This document shows, one piece after another, positions 4,369 through 13,768 of a stretch of 64,000 nt of DNA. The notes beneath the pieces were generated by a model. The model worked only from the letters and a program-made list of their open reading frames with translations, did not search any database and was not told where the DNA came from. The DNA is from a virus. Within the stretch, counting starts at the first letter, position 1; the number at the start of each line of letters is the position of its first letter. The translations under genes were made by a program, and so were the position numbers. Where the stretch lies: positions 166,512 through 230,511 of IMG/VR virus record IMGVR_UViG_3300029922_000001; one strand, 5' to 3'.

Positions 4369-4776
4369 TTATTTATTTTTCTTCTTAGTTTTCTTTTCTT
4401 CTTTTGGAGTTTCGTATCCCAAAGCTGCCATTTCCTTTTCAGTATTACGATTAATTGCTGCTTCAACTGAGAACTTCTCACCGTATCTAGCTTTTAGCTT
4501 GGCAATATTCGCATCTAAGATTTTATCAAAATCAAAATTAGAAGCATCGCATAAAATAGCGGTATACCACATTAAGTCTCCGACTTCCTCAAAAAGATTT
4601 TCGTAATCTAGTGGTTTTTTGTAATAAATATGCTTTTTCATTTGATCTAAGAGTTCCGCAGATTCGGTACATAGACCAATGACAGCATGAAGTTGACGAA
4701 TAGATGTTTTGTCATCAATCAAATCAGGTACACTTTCTGTACGCTTACAATTTTCGATATAGGTTTTAAATTCCAT
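4369..4776 (-). CDS. MazG-like nucleotide pyrophosphohydrolase
   Basis: A 135-residue all-alpha protein with the metal-binding pattern of the MazG/dUTPase-2 superfamily: ExxE at residues 38-41 (TESAELLDQ) and ExxD at 64-67 (FEEVGDLMWY). In known members these acids bind Mg2+ and the enzyme hydrolyses (d)NTPs to monophosphates and pyrophosphate. In phages this cleans the nucleotide pool or lowers (p)ppGpp; the substrate here cannot be read from sequence. The C-terminus is a Lys-rich tail (PKEEKKTKKKNK). On the minus strand a TACAAT box lies 5 nt before the ATG and there is no Shine-Dalgarno, so the mRNA may be leaderless. The gene is divergent from the exoribonuclease gene. Confidence 0.8.
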   Translation of the reverse strand: MEFKTYIENCKRTESVPDLIDDKTSIRQLHAVIGLCTESAELLDQMKKHIYYKKPLDYENLFEEVGDLMWYTAILCDASNFDFDKILDANIAKLKARYGEKFSVEAAINRNTEKEMAALGYETPKEEKKTKKKNK

Positions 4777-4809
4777 AGCTTATTGTAGGTTTTTTTGTAT
4801 AAAAAGAGC

Positions 4810-5328
4810 ATGAGTGTGTATTTTGTTGATTCGGAATTTTACGAAGACGGAGAAATAATAGATTTATTATCCATTGCTATCGTGGCAAATGATAATAAAC
4901 AATATTACGCTGTGAATTCTGATTTTAACTTCACTAGAGCCAATAAAAATAAATGGCTCAAGGAAAACGTCTTGAAACATATTGATTTGGAGGATAAAAC
5001 AAATCAAAGAAGTAAAAAACAAATTAAATCAGATATTTTAAAATTTATTGGTGATGATAAATCCCCGAAATTTGTGTCAGATTATTGCAGCTATGATTAT
5101 ATTGTGTTATGTCAAATATTTGGTAAAATGATTGATCTGCCTGATAATTTTCCTATGTATTGTAATGATCTACAAATGTTAAAGAAGATAGTTGGTGCTA
5201 AGGATTCTGAATTGCCAACTTTGCCAAACGAACATCATGCACTTAATGATGCCTGTCAAGTACGCGAACAATGGTTATTCTTAGAAAAGCGTTTTCAGGA
5301 AAAATTCAAACAAAAACTGGTTTTTTAA
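4810..5328 (+). CDS. 3'-5' exoribonuclease, RNase AS (Rv2179c-like) family
   Basis: A compact 172-residue DEDD-fold exonuclease. The first catalytic pair is D7/E9 (YFVDSEFYEDG), the third acid is probably D96 (CSYDYIVL), and H143/D147 (HHALNDACQ) completes the DEDDh set. The opening DSEFYEDGEIIDLLSI is close to the RNase AS family, which degrades RNA and prefers adenylate-rich tails. A longer frame begins at a TTG (4795), but ATG 4810 gives a protein starting at the first strand of the fold. A TATAAA box lies 6 nt before that ATG, with no Shine-Dalgarno. Likely roles are mRNA turnover or tRNA 3' trimming; it sits next to the tRNA array. Family confidence is high, substrate unknown. Confidence 0.8.
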   Translation: MSVYFVDSEFYEDGEIIDLLSIAIVANDNKQYYAVNSDFNFTRANKNKWLKENVLKHIDLEDKTNQRSKKQIKSDILKFIGDDKSPKFVSDYCSYDYIVLCQIFGKMIDLPDNFPMYCNDLQMLKKIVGAKDSELPTLPNEHHALNDACQVREQWLFLEKRFQEKFKQKLVF

Positions 5329-5535: not shown

Positions 5536-5606
5536 GGGGATGTAGCTCGACGGTCGAGTTAGAGCCTTTTAAGCTCAAGGCGTGGGTTCGATTCCCTCCG
5601 TCCTCA
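5536..5606 (+). tRNA. tRNA-Lys (UUU)
   Basis: Full cloverleaf of 71 nt without encoded CCA. The acceptor GGGGATG pairs with CGTCCTC with two wobbles, and the discriminator is A (5606). The D stem is GCTC/GAGT. The anticodon loop CTTTTAA gives anticodon TTT; its stem AGAGC/GCTCA has four pairs and a terminal A-A mismatch. The T arm GTGGG-TTCGATT-CCCTC has one T-T mismatch. It reads AAA and AAG. It is the first tRNA after the promoter and is followed by CCGAGA. Confidence 0.85.
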
Positions 5607-5616
5607 CCGAGAATAT

Positions 5617-5687
5617 GGGAAGTTAGTTCAATGGTAGAGCGGGAGAATCTAAATCTCCTAATGAGGGTTCGATTCCCTCACTTCCCA
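5617..5687 (+). tRNA. Amber suppressor tRNA (anticodon CUA)
   Basis: Clean cloverleaf of 71 nt: a perfect acceptor GGGAAGT/ACTTCCC, D stem GTTC/GAGC, a perfect five-pair anticodon stem GGAGA/TCTCC around the seven-base loop ATCTAAA, and a perfect T stem GAGGG/CCCTC with loop TTCGATT. Positions 34-36 are CTA, which reads the UAG stop codon. The discriminator is A; the amino acid it carries cannot be told from sequence. UAG terminates only two of 57 complete genes that I call here (60475-60669 and 62891-63472), so the phage tolerates UAG reading. Confidence 0.9.
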
Positions 5688-5700
5688 CCGAGATAAATAT

Positions 5701-5773
5701 GGGAATAAAGCATAAAGGGTGATGCAGTTGGCTCTTAACCTTCAGAACCTGGGCTCGACCCCCGGTGTTCCCA
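5701..5773 (+). tRNA. Atypical tRNA-Lys (CUU) with mismatched anticodon stem
   Basis: The acceptor GGGAATA/TGTTCCC, D stem GCAT/ATGC and T stem CTGGG/CCCGG are sound, with discriminator A. At standard positions the anticodon arm is GTTGG-CTCTTAA-CCTTC, giving anticodon CTT, but with two adjacent U-U oppositions in the stem. The T loop is CTCGACC rather than TTCGANN. It may be a functional variant, a decaying gene or one shaped to escape anticodon nucleases. Lysine identity is probable but less certain than for its neighbours. Confidence 0.65.
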
Positions 5774-5783
5774 CGAGAAATAT

Positions 5784-5856
5784 GGGGATATAACTCAATT
5801 GGTAGAGTGGCAGACTCTTAATCTGTAAGTTTGGGGTTCAAGTCCCCATGTCCCTA
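5784..5856 (+). tRNA. tRNA-Lys (CUU)
   Basis: 73-nt cloverleaf: acceptor GGGGATA/TGTCCCT, D stem ACTC/GAGT, anticodon arm GCAGA-CTCTTAA-TCTGT with anticodon CTT (codon AAG), T arm TGGGG-TTCAAGT-CCCCA, discriminator A at 5856. The CGAGA trailer follows directly. Confidence 0.88.
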
Positions 5857-5865
5857 CGAGAGCAA

Positions 5866-6190
5866 TTTGAATTTTGGGAAGTTGGCTTAGAAACAGCTAT
5901 CTTATAATGAGTGTCAAGTGGAATGCATCAGGACGAATATAGGTATGAGAAATCTGAATAATCTATCGTGCGCGGTAGATTAATACTGAAATTCGGTTGG
6001 TACTGATGTCGTGTCTCAGCTATCCCAGCATGAGGACGTAGAACCACAGGGGAAGGACAAGTGCAGTATTAATAATATGTTTGGTAGGCGAAGCTACCGA
6101 ACTAAGTAGAGGAAGGTAAGGGATAGGATATTCTACAATGTTATTAATGACCCTTAGAGACTTTGGCGTAGTAGCACACCAAAATTCAAA
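5866..6190 (+). ncRNA. Structured RNA mimicking the 23S GTPase-associated centre
   Basis: Coding potential is absent. The ends TTTGAATTTTGG (5866-5877) and CCAAAATTCAAA (6179-6190) are perfectly complementary over 12 bp. Directly inside, 5878-5903 reads like 23S rRNA helix 43: GUUGGCUUAGAAACAGC keeps the E. coli loop UUAGAA, the same U-U mismatch (5882/5900) and nine-step stem, with a compensatory change (5880/5902). Near the 3' end, 6166-6179 (GCGUAGUAGCACAC) matches helix 44 (GCGUAAUAGCUCAC). Equivalents of A1067 (5889) and A1095 (6170) are kept. About 260 nt lie between them, with hairpins at 5959-5980, 6009-6043 and 6080-6099, and an 11-bp helix joining about 6067-6077 and 6138-6148. Loop ATCCC (about 6022-6026) could pair with GGGAT (6120-6124). 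It lies between tRNAs 4 and 5 and has the same CGAGA trailer (6192-6196). The rRNA comparison is from memory. Confidence 0.8.
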
Positions 6191-6201
6191 ACGAGATGTA
6201 A

Positions 6202-6297
6202 GGGGGTATAGCTTAGTGGTTAAAGCTGGAGACTTTTGGAGTATTTCATGGAATATTGCAAAATCTCTAGACTAGGGTTCGATTCCCTGTGCCCCTA
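6202..6297 (+). tRNA. tRNA with 24-nt insertion in the anticodon loop, probably Lys (UUU)
   Basis: Acceptor GGGGGTA/TGCCCCT, D stem GCTT/AAGC and T arm TAGGG-TTCGATT-CCCTG are tRNA-like, with discriminator A. Between the anticodon stem halves GGAGA and TCTCT lie 31 nt instead of 7. The insert forms its own helix: TTTTG pairs with CAAAA, then AGTATTT with GAATATT, capped by CATG. Removing 24 nt can leave the loop CTTTTAA, identical to that of the tRNA-Lys(UUU) at 5536. It may be an intron-bearing tRNA, a tRNA with an extended arm that cannot decode, or a decoy. Confidence 0.7.
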
Positions 6298-6335
6298 CCG
6301 AGATTAAGACAAGTTTTATATGTATAAACACAAGT

Positions 6336-6665
6336 ATGTGCTGTAATAATTTTGAATATAATATACATCTAGGTCACCCTGTAGACTTAGAAATTGCCAA
6401 ATACAAAACAATTAAACTTCTTCCTCGTCACCGAAAAATAAGTCCCTTAATTACGTGGATTATTAGAGATGATGATGGAACAGTACTGGGCACTACAGAA
6501 ACTCATGGTTTAGAAATGAATGATCCAGAAATTAAGGGGATTTTACAAGAAGCTAAAGAAGCTTATCAATATAGAAATAGACTTTATGTTAAGTATGATA
6601 CATGTAAAGATGAGTACGATAAGCTTGCCGTATTAACTACAATAAGATATGATTATCATACTTGA
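6336..6665 (+). CDS. Hypothetical protein (109 aa)
   Basis: Starts MCCNNFEYNIHLGHPVDLEIAK. There is no signal peptide or transmembrane segment. A conserved-looking central part (WIIRDDDGTVLGTTETHG) suggests a small beta-hairpin, followed by a helix rich in Glu, Lys and Tyr. It is the first protein gene after the tRNA array. A TATAAA box lies 7 nt before the ATG, so it may have its own short-leader transcript. Its end overlaps the ATP-grasp gene by 17 nt (frames differ), so the two are probably translationally coupled. I do not recognise the family. Confidence 0.55.
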   Translation: MCCNNFEYNIHLGHPVDLEIAKYKTIKLLPRHRKISPLITWIIRDDDGTVLGTTETHGLEMNDPEIKGILQEAKEAYQYRNRLYVKYDTCKDEYDKLAVLTTIRYDYHT

Positions 6666-7509
6666 CGATGCTGCAAACCAAGATATTAATGATACAGTAT
6701 CAATGATCGCTAGTAGAATGGGAATGAATAACGTATATCATATTCCAGATCGTGACGATTTAACATACGATGAACTTCTATGGCATATTCCCACAAAAGA
6801 TGATCCTGAAAAGGCAATTTGGATCGGTTACATTCCTTTACAAGACAAATACGATGATCTTTATCAAGAATTGAAGAATAAAAACATTTATTTAGTTAAT
6901 GATCCTAAACAACATCAAAAAGCTATGGAATTTGACTTGTTTTATCCTATTATCAGAGAATACACACCACAAAGCGTAACTATAACTAATATTGTGTCTT
7001 GTAAAACTGTTGCTAAAATTTTAGGATTTCCCATATTTGTAAAAGGTGCAATAAAATCAGAAAAAGAAAAAGGTATTAAAGCTTGTAAAGCAGACAATTT
7101 AGAAGAACTCAAAACTTTAGTAGATCCAATTTTGAAACAAACTTATAGGTCTAGAAATAAAGCTGTTTGCCGTAAATATGTCCCATTAAAATATGTTAAA
7201 AAAACTCCTGGTGATTTTCCTATAGGTAGAGAATATCGTTATTTGATGTATTGTAATAAAATTATAACAAGTGGCTATTATTGGGGCGTAGAAGATGAGT
7301 TATCTAAATTAAGTCATTCTGAAAAACAAGAAGTTGATAATTTAGCTATTATGATTTCTAAAAAATTACAAATACCTTTAATTGCTATAGATATTGGACA
7401 GCTTGATTCTGGAGAATGGATTGTAATTGAAGTTGGCGATCCCCAATGTTGTGGAGTATCACATTCGATGGCTTTTGAATTTTGGAATAAAATAGTTGTA
7501 TATGAATAA
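6649..7509 (+). CDS. ATP-grasp domain protein (R2K-like clade)
   Basis: 286 residues. The N-terminal ~100 residues form a Rossmann-like pre-grasp half. From residue ~115 (SCKTVAKILGFPIFVKGAIKSEKEKG) the sequence follows the ATP-grasp pattern: FPIFVKG with the ATP-binding Lys, acidic and basic residues around GREYRYLMYCNKIITSGYYW, and the metal-binding end IAIDIGQLDSGEWIVIEVGDPQCCG. Such enzymes join a carboxylate to an amine through an acyl phosphate; phage members of the R2K group are thought to modify peptides or proteins, but the substrate is unknown. The gene overlaps both neighbours, indicating an operon 6336-7858. A second possible ATP-grasp protein is at 61500-62141. Confidence 0.7.
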   Translation: MIIILDDAANQDINDTVSMIASRMGMNNVYHIPDRDDLTYDELLWHIPTKDDPEKAIWIGYIPLQDKYDDLYQELKNKNIYLVNDPKQHQKAMEFDLFYPIIREYTPQSVTITNIVSCKTVAKILGFPIFVKGAIKSEKEKGIKACKADNLEELKTLVDPILKQTYRSRNKAVCRKYVPLKYVKKTPGDFPIGREYRYLMYCNKIITSGYYWGVEDELSKLSHSEKQEVDNLAIMISKKLQIPLIAIDIGQLDSGEWIVIEVGDPQCCGVSHSMAFEFWNKIVVYE

Positions 7510-9391: not shown

Positions 9392-9406
9392 AATCCCATG
9401 AAACAA
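9377..9406 (-). promoter_or_regulatory. Promoter of the divergent gene 8991-9371
   Basis: Read on the minus strand: TTGTTT (9406-9401), an 18-nt spacer and TATAAT (9382-9377), with the ATG 5 nt downstream at 9371. It interlocks with the plus-strand Thg1 promoter, so polymerase binding to the two is probably exclusive. Confidence 0.65.
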
Positions 9407-10192
9407 GATAAAGATGCTTTAGGCAACAGAATGAAGGATCATGAACACCGAACACGGATTTTACTTCCGCGTAGAACAAATACAATGATTAGGCTTGATG
9501 GAAAAGCTTTTCATACCTTTACAAAAGGATTCAAACGTCCTTTTGATACGGATTTAATGAATATCATGAATCAAACAGCATTAGAAACATGTTCTACAAT
9601 TCAAGGTGCCAAGTTTGCTTATGTTCAATCTGATGAAATTACTATTTTGGTTACAGATTACGAAACTGATGCATGGTTTGATGGTAATATCCAGAAGATG
9701 ACATCAATTTCAGCTTCTTATGCAACATCTGCGTTCAATGCTCATTATGGTAAATACATTTACGATCAAAATCCTAGCGAGTTTGACCCCTTAAAGGTTA
9801 AAAAAGCTAATTTTGATAGCCGTGTATGGACTTTAGCTGATCCTAATGAAGTTATTAATGTTTTAATTTGGAGACAACAAGATTGTGTAAAAAATAGTAT
9901 TTCTATGGCAGCACAATCAATGTTCTCTCAGAAAGAATTGCAAAATAAGCATTCTGACGACATGCAAGAGATGATGTGGCAAAAAGGCGTCAATTGGAAT
10001 GATTATACTGTTGGCGAAAAGCGTGGTCGTTTTATCGAAAAGATTTCCACACAAAAGGATATCGAATACATAGATAAGCGAACTGGTGAAAAACATATCA
10101 AAGAAGGTGTTATTCGATCTAAATGGAAAGTCGTAGAACCACCAACTTTTTCAACAGACAAAGACTTTATTCGTCGTTTCATGCCCATTTAA
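9398..10192 (+). CDS. Thg1-like 3'-5' polymerase (tRNA guanylyltransferase family)
   Basis: 264 residues with the full Thg1 signature: KDALGNRMKDHE (5-16), the palm motif MIRLDGKAFHTFTKGF (30-45) with metal-binding D34, and YVQSDEITIL (75-84) with catalytic D79 and E80, then QKMTSISASYATSAFN. Thg1 adds G to the 5' end of tRNA-His in eukaryotes; bacterial and phage Thg1-like proteins repair 5'-truncated tRNAs by template-directed 3'-to-5' addition. A phage with its own odd tRNAs could use it to repair or finish their 5' ends, or to restore tRNAs damaged by host defence. It has its own strong, apparently leaderless promoter. Length is typical of the family. Confidence 0.92.
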   Translation: MKQDKDALGNRMKDHEHRTRILLPRRTNTMIRLDGKAFHTFTKGFKRPFDTDLMNIMNQTALETCSTIQGAKFAYVQSDEITILVTDYETDAWFDGNIQKMTSISASYATSAFNAHYGKYIYDQNPSEFDPLKVKKANFDSRVWTLADPNEVINVLIWRQQDCVKNSISMAAQSMFSQKELQNKHSDDMQEMMWQKGVNWNDYTVGEKRGRFIEKISTQKDIEYIDKRTGEKHIKEGVIRSKWKVVEPPTFSTDKDFIRRFMPI

Positions 10193-10622: not shown

Positions 10623-11744
10623 ATGCTTATAAATAGATCTATTCAATATAGATTATATCCTAACAATAAACAAATTAAATTATTATCTAATAATTTGGAA
10701 GGTTGTAGACTACTTTATAATCAAATGTTGAATCAAAGAAAAGAAGGATGGGAACAAGATAAGCAATCCTTTTCTTGTTATGATCAGCAAAAATATTTTA
10801 AAGATTATCTAGATAAACTAGAATATAATATTCATGCTCAAGTTAAACAAAATGTTGCCGTTAGAGTTGACTTAGCTTTTAAGGCTTTCTTTCGTAGAAT
10901 TAAAAATAAAGAAAATCCAGGTTATCCTAGATTTAAATCTTTTGGTAGATATGATTCATTCACTTATCCTCAAACTGATTACGGATATAAAATTAAAGAT
11001 AAACAAATATATTTATGTAAGATAGGTAATGTTAAAGTTGTTATTCATAAACAAATCACTGGATTTATCAAAACATGTACTATCAAGAAAGAAAGTGATA
11101 GATGGTTTGTTATTTTTACTTATGAAGCAGAATCAACATCTTATGAATCTTCTACTAATTTAGAGATTGGTATTGATGTAGGTTTAAAATCTTTTGCAGT
11201 GTTCTCAGATAATACAACTATTGATAATCCTAGATTCTTTAAACAAGAAGAAAAGAATATTGGAAGATTACAAAGACGAAAAGAAAAAGCTAATGGTAAT
11301 CAAAAACAAAAATTAAAGAAAGCTATTCAAAAACGTCATGCTAAAGTTAAAAATAAGAGAAAAGATTTTTGTCATAAGCTTTCGAGATCAATCGTCAATA
11401 AATATAAAATTATTTGCATTGAAGATTTAAACATTAATCAAATGAAAGAAAACATGAGATATTTATCAAAAAGTATTCATGATGCTTCTTGGAAACTATT
11501 CTTGAACTATCTAATCTATAAAGCGGAAGAAGCTGGTAGATTATTAATTCAAGTCAATCCTGCGTATACTACCCAGGATTGTAGTAAATGTGGTTATAGA
11601 GTTAAAAAGAAGCTTTCAGATCGTATTCATAATTGTCCTAATTGTGGACTCTCTATGGATCGTGATCTAAATGCTTCCCTAAACATTTTGAGAATAGGAT
11701 TATATTCTCTTGGTATTAAATCCATAGAAGATTCTTTTAATTAA
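10623..11744 (+). CDS. tnpB: TnpB-type RNA-guided nuclease (IS605 OrfB family)
   Basis: 373 residues with the TnpB layout: N-terminal wedge/REC part (MLINRSIQYRLYPNNKQIK, YNQMLNQRK), then a RuvC-like nuclease split over D185 (IGIDVGLKSF), E267 (IICIEDLNI) and D348 (MDRDLNASLNIL). A four-Cys zinc ribbon sits between the last two (C320, C323, C338, C341). All catalytic residues are intact. In IS200/IS605 elements TnpB cuts DNA under guidance of an omega RNA made from the transposon right end. No TnpA gene is present, and only 16 nt separate the stop from the convergent neighbour, so a conventional right end with a free guide region is hard to fit. This may be a solitary TnpB acting as a homing nuclease. 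Confidence 0.9.
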   Translation: MLINRSIQYRLYPNNKQIKLLSNNLEGCRLLYNQMLNQRKEGWEQDKQSFSCYDQQKYFKDYLDKLEYNIHAQVKQNVAVRVDLAFKAFFRRIKNKENPGYPRFKSFGRYDSFTYPQTDYGYKIKDKQIYLCKIGNVKVVIHKQITGFIKTCTIKKESDRWFVIFTYEAESTSYESSTNLEIGIDVGLKSFAVFSDNTTIDNPRFFKQEEKNIGRLQRRKEKANGNQKQKLKKAIQKRHAKVKNKRKDFCHKLSRSIVNKYKIICIEDLNINQMKENMRYLSKSIHDASWKLFLNYLIYKAEEAGRLLIQVNPAYTTQDCSKCGYRVKKKLSDRIHNCPNCGLSMDRDLNASLNILRIGLYSLGIKSIEDSFN

Positions 11745-12826: not shown

Positions 12827-13768
12827 TTACTCTTCGTCGGTAACATATTTTTTATGAGCAGGGTTCTCTTTTTTAAAGATTCTAGCGTAATATTCTTCAT
12901 AAGTATTAAAAACTTCTCTTGTAGTTACAACAAAGTAAATCTTTTCAATTTGAGATTCTTGGTTTTCTTCAAAATATCTTAATACAGCAGAAATTTGAGC
13001 TAAAGCACCTTGATAAACATTAAGAGTTCCGCAATCCATAGGGGTAATAACTAAACTCTTGCATTGTATACTGTCAGCTAACAATAATGAACGGTTAGTT
13101 GCAGTAGAAATGTATTTTTCTTCTGTTAATCCTCCACCACCTGATACAATAGCGTGGGCAACACTCTTGAAAGGTAATTCTGGAATATTAGATGCATCAG
13201 TGTTGTAAACATGACCCATTTTAATAGGAACACCATTTTCATTAATTCTATTAAGTTGATTTTGTAGTTTAAAACCACTTAAAGTTTGCAATACTGGATC
13301 AAGAATTTCTAATAGGTTGTTATTTGGATATACAAGCATATCAGCTTTAACCTTATAGGGAGAAGGGACTAAATGAACAGAAATTTTCACATTGTCAATA
13401 CTAGGCTTGTAGGCTTGTGGTTTTTCATCATCATTTTTACGATAAGGTTGATAATCTTCAACGACTTCATTACCAATCACAACGTCTTCTTCGGAATTCC
13501 AATCGTACATGCTGTGTAAGAAAACACAGTTCTCATATTTACCGCGACAATTTTCATCCCACTTTTCATTATTGATATAATGTTGTTTATTTGGGACAAT
13601 ATCATTAAAAACACCAATTAGAGGATTGACAAACTTTTTATTGTCTTCATCAAATTCTTCTTCCACCATGTTTTTAAAAACACAATCATATTGTGAATTG
13701 TCAAATATTACATAAAATGGACATTCTGCACATGCCTGTTGTATAGAAAGTATTTTTATTTTTTTCAT
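12827..13768 (-). CDS. Macrodomain protein with Cys-rich N-terminus (313 aa)
   Basis: Residues 1-95 carry spaced cysteines (C13, C16, C29 and two more in ENCRGKYENC), compatible with metal binding. From about residue 130 the sequence follows the macrodomain fold that binds ADP-ribose: KADMLVYPNNNLLEI, VPIKMGHVYNTDASNIPEL, then SVAHAIVSGGGGLTEEKY, LLLADSIQCKSLVITPMDCGTLNVYQG and a final YFVVTTREVFNTYEEYY. Known macrodomains remove ADP-ribose from proteins, DNA or RNA, or process ADP-ribose-1''-phosphate from tRNA splicing. In a phage, reversal of host ADP-ribosylation defence (DarT-like) is plausible. A TATAAT box 6 nt before the ATG indicates a leaderless transcript that starts just after the terminator of the upstream operon. 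Confidence 0.7.
   Translation of the reverse strand: MKKIKILSIQQACAECPFYVIFDNSQYDCVFKNMVEEEFDEDNKKFVNPLIGVFNDIVPNKQHYINNEKWDENCRGKYENCVFLHSMYDWNSEEDVVIGNEVVEDYQPYRKNDDEKPQAYKPSIDNVKISVHLVPSPYKVKADMLVYPNNNLLEILDPVLQTLSGFKLQNQLNRINENGVPIKMGHVYNTDASNIPELPFKSVAHAIVSGGGGLTEEKYISTATNRSLLLADSIQCKSLVITPMDCGTLNVYQGALAQISAVLRYFEENQESQIEKIYFVVTTREVFNTYEEYYARIFKKENPAHKKYVTDEE

Follow-up and report, generated by a model that had tools for sequence, protein, structure and literature searches.

Why would a virus carry, among its tRNA genes, an RNA whose two ends resemble a piece of 23S rRNA? The question is raised by a stretch of 64,000 nucleotides (hereafter the window; positions 166,512 to 230,511) of IMG/VR virus record IMGVR_UViG_3300029922_000001, a phage record of 441,498 bp. 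Within a tRNA array on the plus strand, flanked by tRNA-Lys(CTT) upstream and tRNA-Gln downstream, lies a unit at 5862-6191 (outer limits approximate) that a sequence-only reading had described as a non-coding segment of ~325 nt, closed by a perfect 12-bp helix, which imitates the GTPase-associated centre (GAC) of the ribosome. The inverted repeat is indeed present, and no open reading frame (ORF) of at least 60 aa occurs between 5328 and 6336 of the window. Judged by comparison with bacterial sequences, the ends of this RNA almost certainly fold as the ribosomal GAC, or L11-binding domain (58 nt, helices H43 and H44, and a tertiary core).

Architecture and relatives of the RNA

The closing helix, P1, is formed by 5866-5877 and 6179-6190, and its inner 9 bp are the counterpart of E. 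coli 1047-1055. Just inside lies the H43 mimic (5879-5903, E. coli 1057-1081, with A1067 at 5889), recognized by identity and by a 23S covariance model (CM). The resemblance noted earlier agrees with the comparison made here, in that 5878-5903 (GAAGUUGGCUUAGAAACAGCUAUCUU) is identical to E. coli 1056-1081 at 22 of 26 positions keeps the loop UUAGAA and the U-U mismatch, and includes one compensatory change, from U-A to A-U at pair 1058/1080. There follow AUAAU (5904-5908), equivalent to 1082-1086, a UAA triloop closed by a long-range pair that covaries across members and is A-U in the window and U-A in rRNA, and GAGU (5909-5912), equivalent to 1087-1090, the 5′ strand of H44 ahead of an insert (G1089 and U1090 are found in 91 of 93 members of the family introduced below). 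The insert, placed between U1090 and G1091 by insert-length statistics and a subfamily alignment, comprises 253 nt (5913-6165), close to the ~260 nt first estimated to separate the two hairpins. The H44 mimic (6166-6179, E. coli 1091-1104, with A1095 at 6170 and A1101 at 6176), supported by identity and by conservation in 31 members, matches E. coli at 12 of 14 positions (GCGUAGUAGCACAC), the same count as before, and the order of closing helix, H43, insert, H44, and closing helix was recovered on re-examination.

Bacterial 23S GAC sequences were collected, 23 were aligned, and a CM was built from these alone. Searched against the 64-kb window, it gave the RNA a score of 33.0 bits (E=1e-7) and the second-best match one of 8.2 bits, and the proposal of a GAC mimic thus withstood a search informed only by rRNA. 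The same CM detects the RNA in 38 of the 39 phage records that contain it, as a rule with a single match per genome. The Rfam bacterial large subunit (LSU) model matches one homologue at model positions 1084-1153 (E=4.7e-6, below the gathering score). At the gathering score of Rfam 15, only tRNAs were matched in the window; at E<=10, the window RNA had no match, GOLLD and ROOL included; and in 12 loci with homologues, the only match noticed on the RNA was to the LSU model, at the GAC and below threshold. A known Rfam family was therefore rejected at gathering and permissive thresholds alike, in keeping with the suggestion that the RNA belongs to no known class. No published description of the RNA was found in full-text, Creative Commons-licensed PMC, a scope beyond which subscription papers and preprints largely lie.

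In two pattern scans of IMG/VR, more than 150 loci had the two arms on a single strand in the right order, and at least 134 distinct loci, drawn from named phages, contigs of IMG/VR, and a small number of bacterial assemblies, have this architecture in common. Searches by blastn with the RNA or the E. coli GAC as query returned unannotated matches in jumbo and other large phages. Named carriers are XacN1, BF, CBB, GAP32, XbC2, XaC1, Kaldavass, the pEa_SNUABM phages, Aeromonas 4_4572, Milchi, Astolliot, pf16, and UNO-G1W1, and short hypothetical ORFs overlap the RNA in one or two phage genomes. A look for homologues in other phage tRNA arrays had been proposed, and a total of 73 members do lie within 500 nt of a tRNA, all 73 on the tRNA strand. 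Across 133 loci, 55% were within 500 nt and 39% within 50 nt of a tRNA, compared with 34% and 19% of random positions in the same tRNA-rich loci. In the window, the array spans 5536-6299 and includes five tRNAs; CGAGA occurs 10 times on the plus strand, six of which come after each of the five tRNAs and after the RNA (the spacers bounding the RNA unit are at 5857 and 6192). Because CGAGA follows the RNA as it follows each tRNA, the array treats the RNA as a sixth unit.

A functionless piece of 23S rRNA, whether captured by the phage or present as contamination, would likewise be expected to derive from or match 23S. The chance of such an origin is practically negligible given the compensatory evolution, the same-strand linkage to tRNAs, the presence of the RNA in isolated and completely sequenced phages, and the lack of any plain 23S copy among the IMG/VR H43 matches; contamination or a fragment was thus rejected by covariation and genomic context. 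Further, the 5′ strand of H44 (1087-1092) is not continuous in the mimic, and its interruption between 1090 and 1091 points to a derived mimic rather than a plain rRNA fragment. A chance H43 match was also rejected: of 119 exact H43-pattern matches located away from the ends of viral contigs, ~92 are the phage RNA, ~27 are other sequence (mostly apparent protein-coding), and 0 are plain 23S.

Only 25 pattern matches were found in 257 Gb of GTDB species genomes; many of these are the whole RNA, some closely resemble viral contigs, and a phage-like neighbourhood surrounds at least one. Assemblies of cultured gut bacteria with the RNA include Clostridiaceae strain 9 (L204), Flintibacter muris DSM 110149 (L221), and bacterium D16-76 (L223); the neighbourhoods of L221 and L223, in which several methyltransferase-like ORFs occur, have a phage-like look that suggests prophages or co-sequenced phages. 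A plasmid scan with a composite query listed only H43-side matches, none covering 80% of the query, consistent with copies of 23S. Pseudomonas phages Milchi and Astolliot encode a second, divergent GAC-like RNA (L229 and L230; 2655-2982) ~300 nt upstream of the standard copy, and two IMG/VR records (G038 and G041) have two matches each. Near the GAC RNA of L071, two minus-strand segments (1253-1372 and 1411-1479) gave sub-threshold matches to YrlA, a Y RNA-like family (E=0.013 and 1e-4), which are possibly tRNA-like RNAs.

Constant head and variable insert

The pairing of P1 was examined in 128 distinct sequences. It extends from 1055-1104 out to 1047-1112, or 9 bp, most of which use all four Watson-Crick types, and drops to the level of shuffled sequence beyond this point. 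In 98 members with dissimilar inserts, 83% of P1 positions pair, versus 37-47% when the partners are slid by 1-3. Within the head, counts were taken from 93 members with standard spacing. The H43 pair 1058-1080 is U-A, G-C, A-U, or C-G, with three G-U, and is paired in all 93, while the long-range pair 1082-1086 is U-A in 47, C-G in 25, and A-U in 16 (88 of 93). The homologues thus keep both H43 and H44, with compensatory changes, as the assignment to the ribosomal domain had implied. At the level of sequence, these data establish a discrete RNA with the GAC fold, encoded as a stand-alone unit and tRNA-operon member, equipped with a private 9-bp stem, and interrupted in the 5′ strand of H44 by a structured domain that varies between members.

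Base conservation was counted reciprocally, with H43 bases scored in members found via H44 and vice versa, because a search pattern biases its own arm. Core positions of H43 (G1059 in 96/96, U1060 in 94/96, U1066 in 95/96, and C1072 in 96/96) and of H44 (G1091, C1092, G1093, and C1100 in 31/31 each) hardly vary, and positions near 100% in the fold core are 1059, 1060, 1062, 1063, 1066, 1072, 1073, 1091-1093, and 1098-1100. The tips are relaxed, both in H43 (A1067 in 83/96, or 86%; G1068 in 78/96, or 81%; A1070 in 76%) and in H44 (A1096 in 22/31, or 71%; 1097 free). In the sample of 23 23S sequences, by comparison, the positions relaxed in the phage RNA are invariant, except for 1097. Position 1061 is often A in the phage RNAs, a base that stabilizes the isolated rRNA domain, and U1090 stands opposite A1101 as a standard pair, which rRNA lacks when the bases are U1090-U1101. 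With individual bases assigned to what we take to be their L11 or factor contacts, a nearly invariant fold core together with a relaxed factor-facing tip suggests that selection keeps the fold of the L11 domain.

Across the family, the insert measures between 47 and 338 nt, with a median of 148 and with 19 of 116 members below 100 nt, and for the most part the inserts bear no obvious resemblance to one another. A first helix of ~4 bp at the insert start, P2, covaries in 116 members (in the window, GUC at 5913-5915 with the letters GAC at 6159-6161), and a linker precedes G1091 (UUUG at 6162-6165 in the window; UUUG or UUUUG in 112 of 116 members). A hairpin of the type CACCCCGUAACUGGUAAGG, or CACCCCG(UAAC/GAAA-like)GGUAAGG, recurs in 21 members, and an insert subfamily with AGGGG...GACCCUUAGAG unites the window with GAP32, CBB, BF, XacN1, and others. 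In the window, AGGGG (6048-6052) pairs with CCCU (6151-6154), the latter inside GACCCUUAGAGAC ahead of the linker, as seen in the subfamily alignment (RNAalifold columns 183-186 / 371-378). RNAalifold of this subfamily resolves P1, H43, H44, and the AGGGG/CCCU pair, and not the rest of the insert. In a few members (L013, L062, L077, L082, and L125), an additional hairpin separates H43 from the triloop.

Two explanations turn on the insert. In the first, it is an intron in a GAC minigene, and the product of splicing at U1090 / G1091 would be a 58-nt GAC RNA exactly of the bacterial type. Removal of the insert yields GAGU-GCGUA, restoring GAGUGCGUA in register, the common bacterial 23S sequence, and the borders are as in group I introns, with a U ending the 5′ side (91/93) and a G ending the insert (112/116). 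The inserts nonetheless include 19 of 116 under 100 nt and some as short as 47 nt, where a group I or II intron would exceed ~200 nt, no intron core is common to them, and no Rfam group I / II match was obtained for the window or for 12 loci with other members. On the grounds of insert size and the missing core, the intron was rejected, and it is considered highly improbable. In the second, the three-way fold derived from rRNA is reused as a stable end cap, while the real function resides in the insert (as a ribozyme, cage-forming RNA, or scaffold) and L11 binding is incidental. GOLLD and ROOL, found near phage tRNAs, form protein-free cages (PMC12286853), and the inserts do have conserved modules of their own, such as the recurrent hairpin and the AGGGG/CCCU subfamily. 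Yet the part held constant is the GAC, inserts of widely differing length look mostly unrelated, and the invariant tertiary bases of the L11 domain would not be needed by a mere cap; structural reuse is accordingly rated unlikely.

A putative uL11 sponge and its competitors

If the head is what selection preserves, what would it bind? Selection has kept the bases of the L11 fold, and on this ground the phage RNA probably binds uL11, a prediction from sequence conservation. The data favour L11 over docking of factors or of the stalk, because the rest of H42, which holds the L10 site, is absent and the factor-facing loop bases vary more than the core. Without H42 beyond ~1047/1112, the RNA is predicted to be unable to host L10/L12, and a full ribosomal stalk base (H42 to H44 with the L10 site) was rejected for want of H42, with its kink, beyond 1047/1112.

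L11 is needed for activation of RelA, and relC is rplK. Against this background, the best overall explanation, for which we see an even chance, is a trans-acting mimic of the L11-binding domain that acts as a uL11 sponge and damps RelA. The RNA would be transcribed within the tRNA-array transcript and cut out along with the tRNAs; once excised, it would fold like the ribosomal GAC and capture the free or exchanging uL11 of the host. At high copy, it would compete with 50S subunits and leave part of them without L11. As L11-poor ribosomes cannot activate RelA, the gain for the phage would be a damping of both the stringent response and L11-dependent control at times when its growth drains the pool of tRNAs, which is also the stress that the neighbouring tRNAs would relieve. 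The insert might make the RNA more stable, exclude it from ribosomes, or have a second, host-specific function. Weakened L11-dependent (RelA) signalling is a plausible consequence of uL11 capture, and the chance that sponging is the selected function falls slightly short of even. More tentative is the wider proposal of a widespread class of phage trans-acting RNAs that imitate a functional centre of rRNA, titrate uL11, render infected cells relaxed (relC-like), and are co-expressed with tRNAs as a unit sustaining translation in infection. A precedent for the dose is ROOL RNA, which can equal 16S rRNA in abundance (PMC12286853).

Several points weigh against a sponge. L11 could be hindered by the insert at 1090/1091, the L11 of finished ribosomes may exchange too slowly for titration, and the RNA is usually present as a single copy per genome. 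In addition, control of the L1-L11 operon lets bacteria produce more L11. Finally, the loop bases A1067 (86%) and A1095 (90%) are mostly kept, for which a pure L11 sponge has no need.

These same bases, with A1098 (97%) and the mostly retained loop UUAGAA, are what would be expected of a docking platform, in which the imitation GAC captures translational GTPases or RelA/SpoT-type factors, directly or via L11/L12, and factors are brought to the phage RNA or held off the ribosome. The source phage also encodes a full-length bL12 (G000:C1:304136-304336, locus L254, outside the window; PF00542, E=6e-26), with both the N-terminal dimerization part and the C-terminal domain. Few other carriers do so: any L12 match was found in only 8 of 40 (strong in G020 and G025, shorter in W11, G018, G022, and G036), most named carriers have none, and a scan that started from L12 yielded a single relative. 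As an obligate partner of the RNA, bL12 was rejected on this count. With the H42/L10 site absent, the variable bases being those that face the factors, and no sarcin-ricin-like element noticed in the inserts, a docking platform also seems unlikely.

A hypervariable insert beside a constant head might alternatively reflect an arms race, in which the RNA would serve as a decoy, drawing an anti-phage effector of the host or an rRNA-modifying enzyme with specificity for the GAC (a nuclease, methylase, or ADP-ribosyltransferase) away from the ribosomes and so protecting them in infection. Phage tRNA arrays are a known site for countering RNA-targeting defence. No defence effector aimed at the GAC is known to us, however, and conservation tracks the L11/fold core, not a single base that might be cleaved or modified; such a decoy is judged rather improbable. 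An autoregulatory leader of a ribosomal protein was rejected, as the neighbours of the RNA are tRNAs and no L11 or L10 gene was found in the source phage record.

Comparable systems and the surrounding genes

The phage RNA resembles the bacterial 23S GAC (H43-H44, E. coli 1051-1108) in sequence, secondary structure, the 1082-1086 pair, U1060, C1072, A1088, and loop bases. It differs in standing alone, in having its own 9-bp stem in place of H42 and a 47-338-nt insert at 1090/1091, in the U1090-A1101 pair, and in the relaxation of 1067, 1068, 1070, 1096, and 1097. We know of no earlier viral RNA that copies a functional centre of rRNA, and the phage GAC RNA would, as far as we are aware, be the first. 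The mRNA leaders of ribosomal proteins (L1, L10, S8, and others) likewise imitate, outside the ribosome, rRNA sites bound by protein for autoregulation. These leaders act in cis on their own mRNA, whereas the phage RNA is a separate array unit without an adjoining ribosomal protein gene.

GOLLD and ROOL are also phage-encoded, large, structured RNAs in or beside tRNA arrays; the GAC RNA is much shorter, has no Rfam match to either, and has an rRNA domain as its constant part (PMC12286853). OLE RNA, proposed to sequester the ribosomal protein RpsU (PMC12286853), shares the idea of an RNA imitating a ribosomal-protein site but is bacterial, unrelated in sequence, and directed at another protein. 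Virus-encoded ribosomal proteins include bS21 and bL12 (PMC6375957), the latter present in the source phage; these too are phage-supplied parts that can enter or compete with host ribosome components, although they are proteins and the GAC mimic is rRNA-like RNA. Phage phiTE is reported to encode an RNA mimic of the ToxI antitoxin that neutralizes a protein (PMC3475682), again a phage RNA imitating a host RNA, with another target and no known sequence relation. If the proposed activity is real, phages would have a route, by RNA alone, to influence the supply of ribosomal proteins, the control of elongation, or the stringent response. The RNA is common enough for direct study in the cultured phages GAP32, CBB, BF, XacN1, pf16, UNO-G1W1, and 4_4572, and its relatives form a large natural collection of GAC variants from which the bases dispensable for the L11 fold can be read, as well as a new covariance family for the annotation of phage tRNA arrays.

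All tRNAs of the array are on the plus strand and, with one exception, were found by both ARAGORN and Rfam: tRNA-Lys(TTT) at 5536-5608, a tRNA with a CTA anticodon (amber reader) at 5617-5689, a tRNA at 5701-5773 found by Rfam and missed by ARAGORN, tRNA-Lys(CTT) at 5784-5857, directly upstream of the RNA, and tRNA-Gln (TTG as called) at 6202-6299, directly downstream. The CTA-anticodon tRNA, called as tRNA-Pyl, is probably an amber suppressor, which suggests TAG recoding in the source phage. The tRNA-Gln has ~27 extra bases in its anticodon arm (TTTTGGAGTATTTCATGGAATATTGCAAAATCTC), possibly a tRNA intron or the result of a misassigned anticodon.

A MazG pyrophosphohydrolase (4369-4776) and an Rv2179c-like 3′-5′ exoribonuclease (4795-5328) are encoded immediately upstream of the array. 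MazG has been linked to (p)ppGpp, a connection that would suit an anti-stringent role. The genes near the array also include one for an R2K ATP-grasp protein (6649-7509) and one for a Thg1-like tRNA-His guanylyltransferase (9398-10192). Further along are a TnpB-like protein (10623-11744) with OrfB_IS605 and Cas12f1-like TNB domains, and a Macro-domain protein (12827-13768) that possibly reverses ADP-ribosylation.
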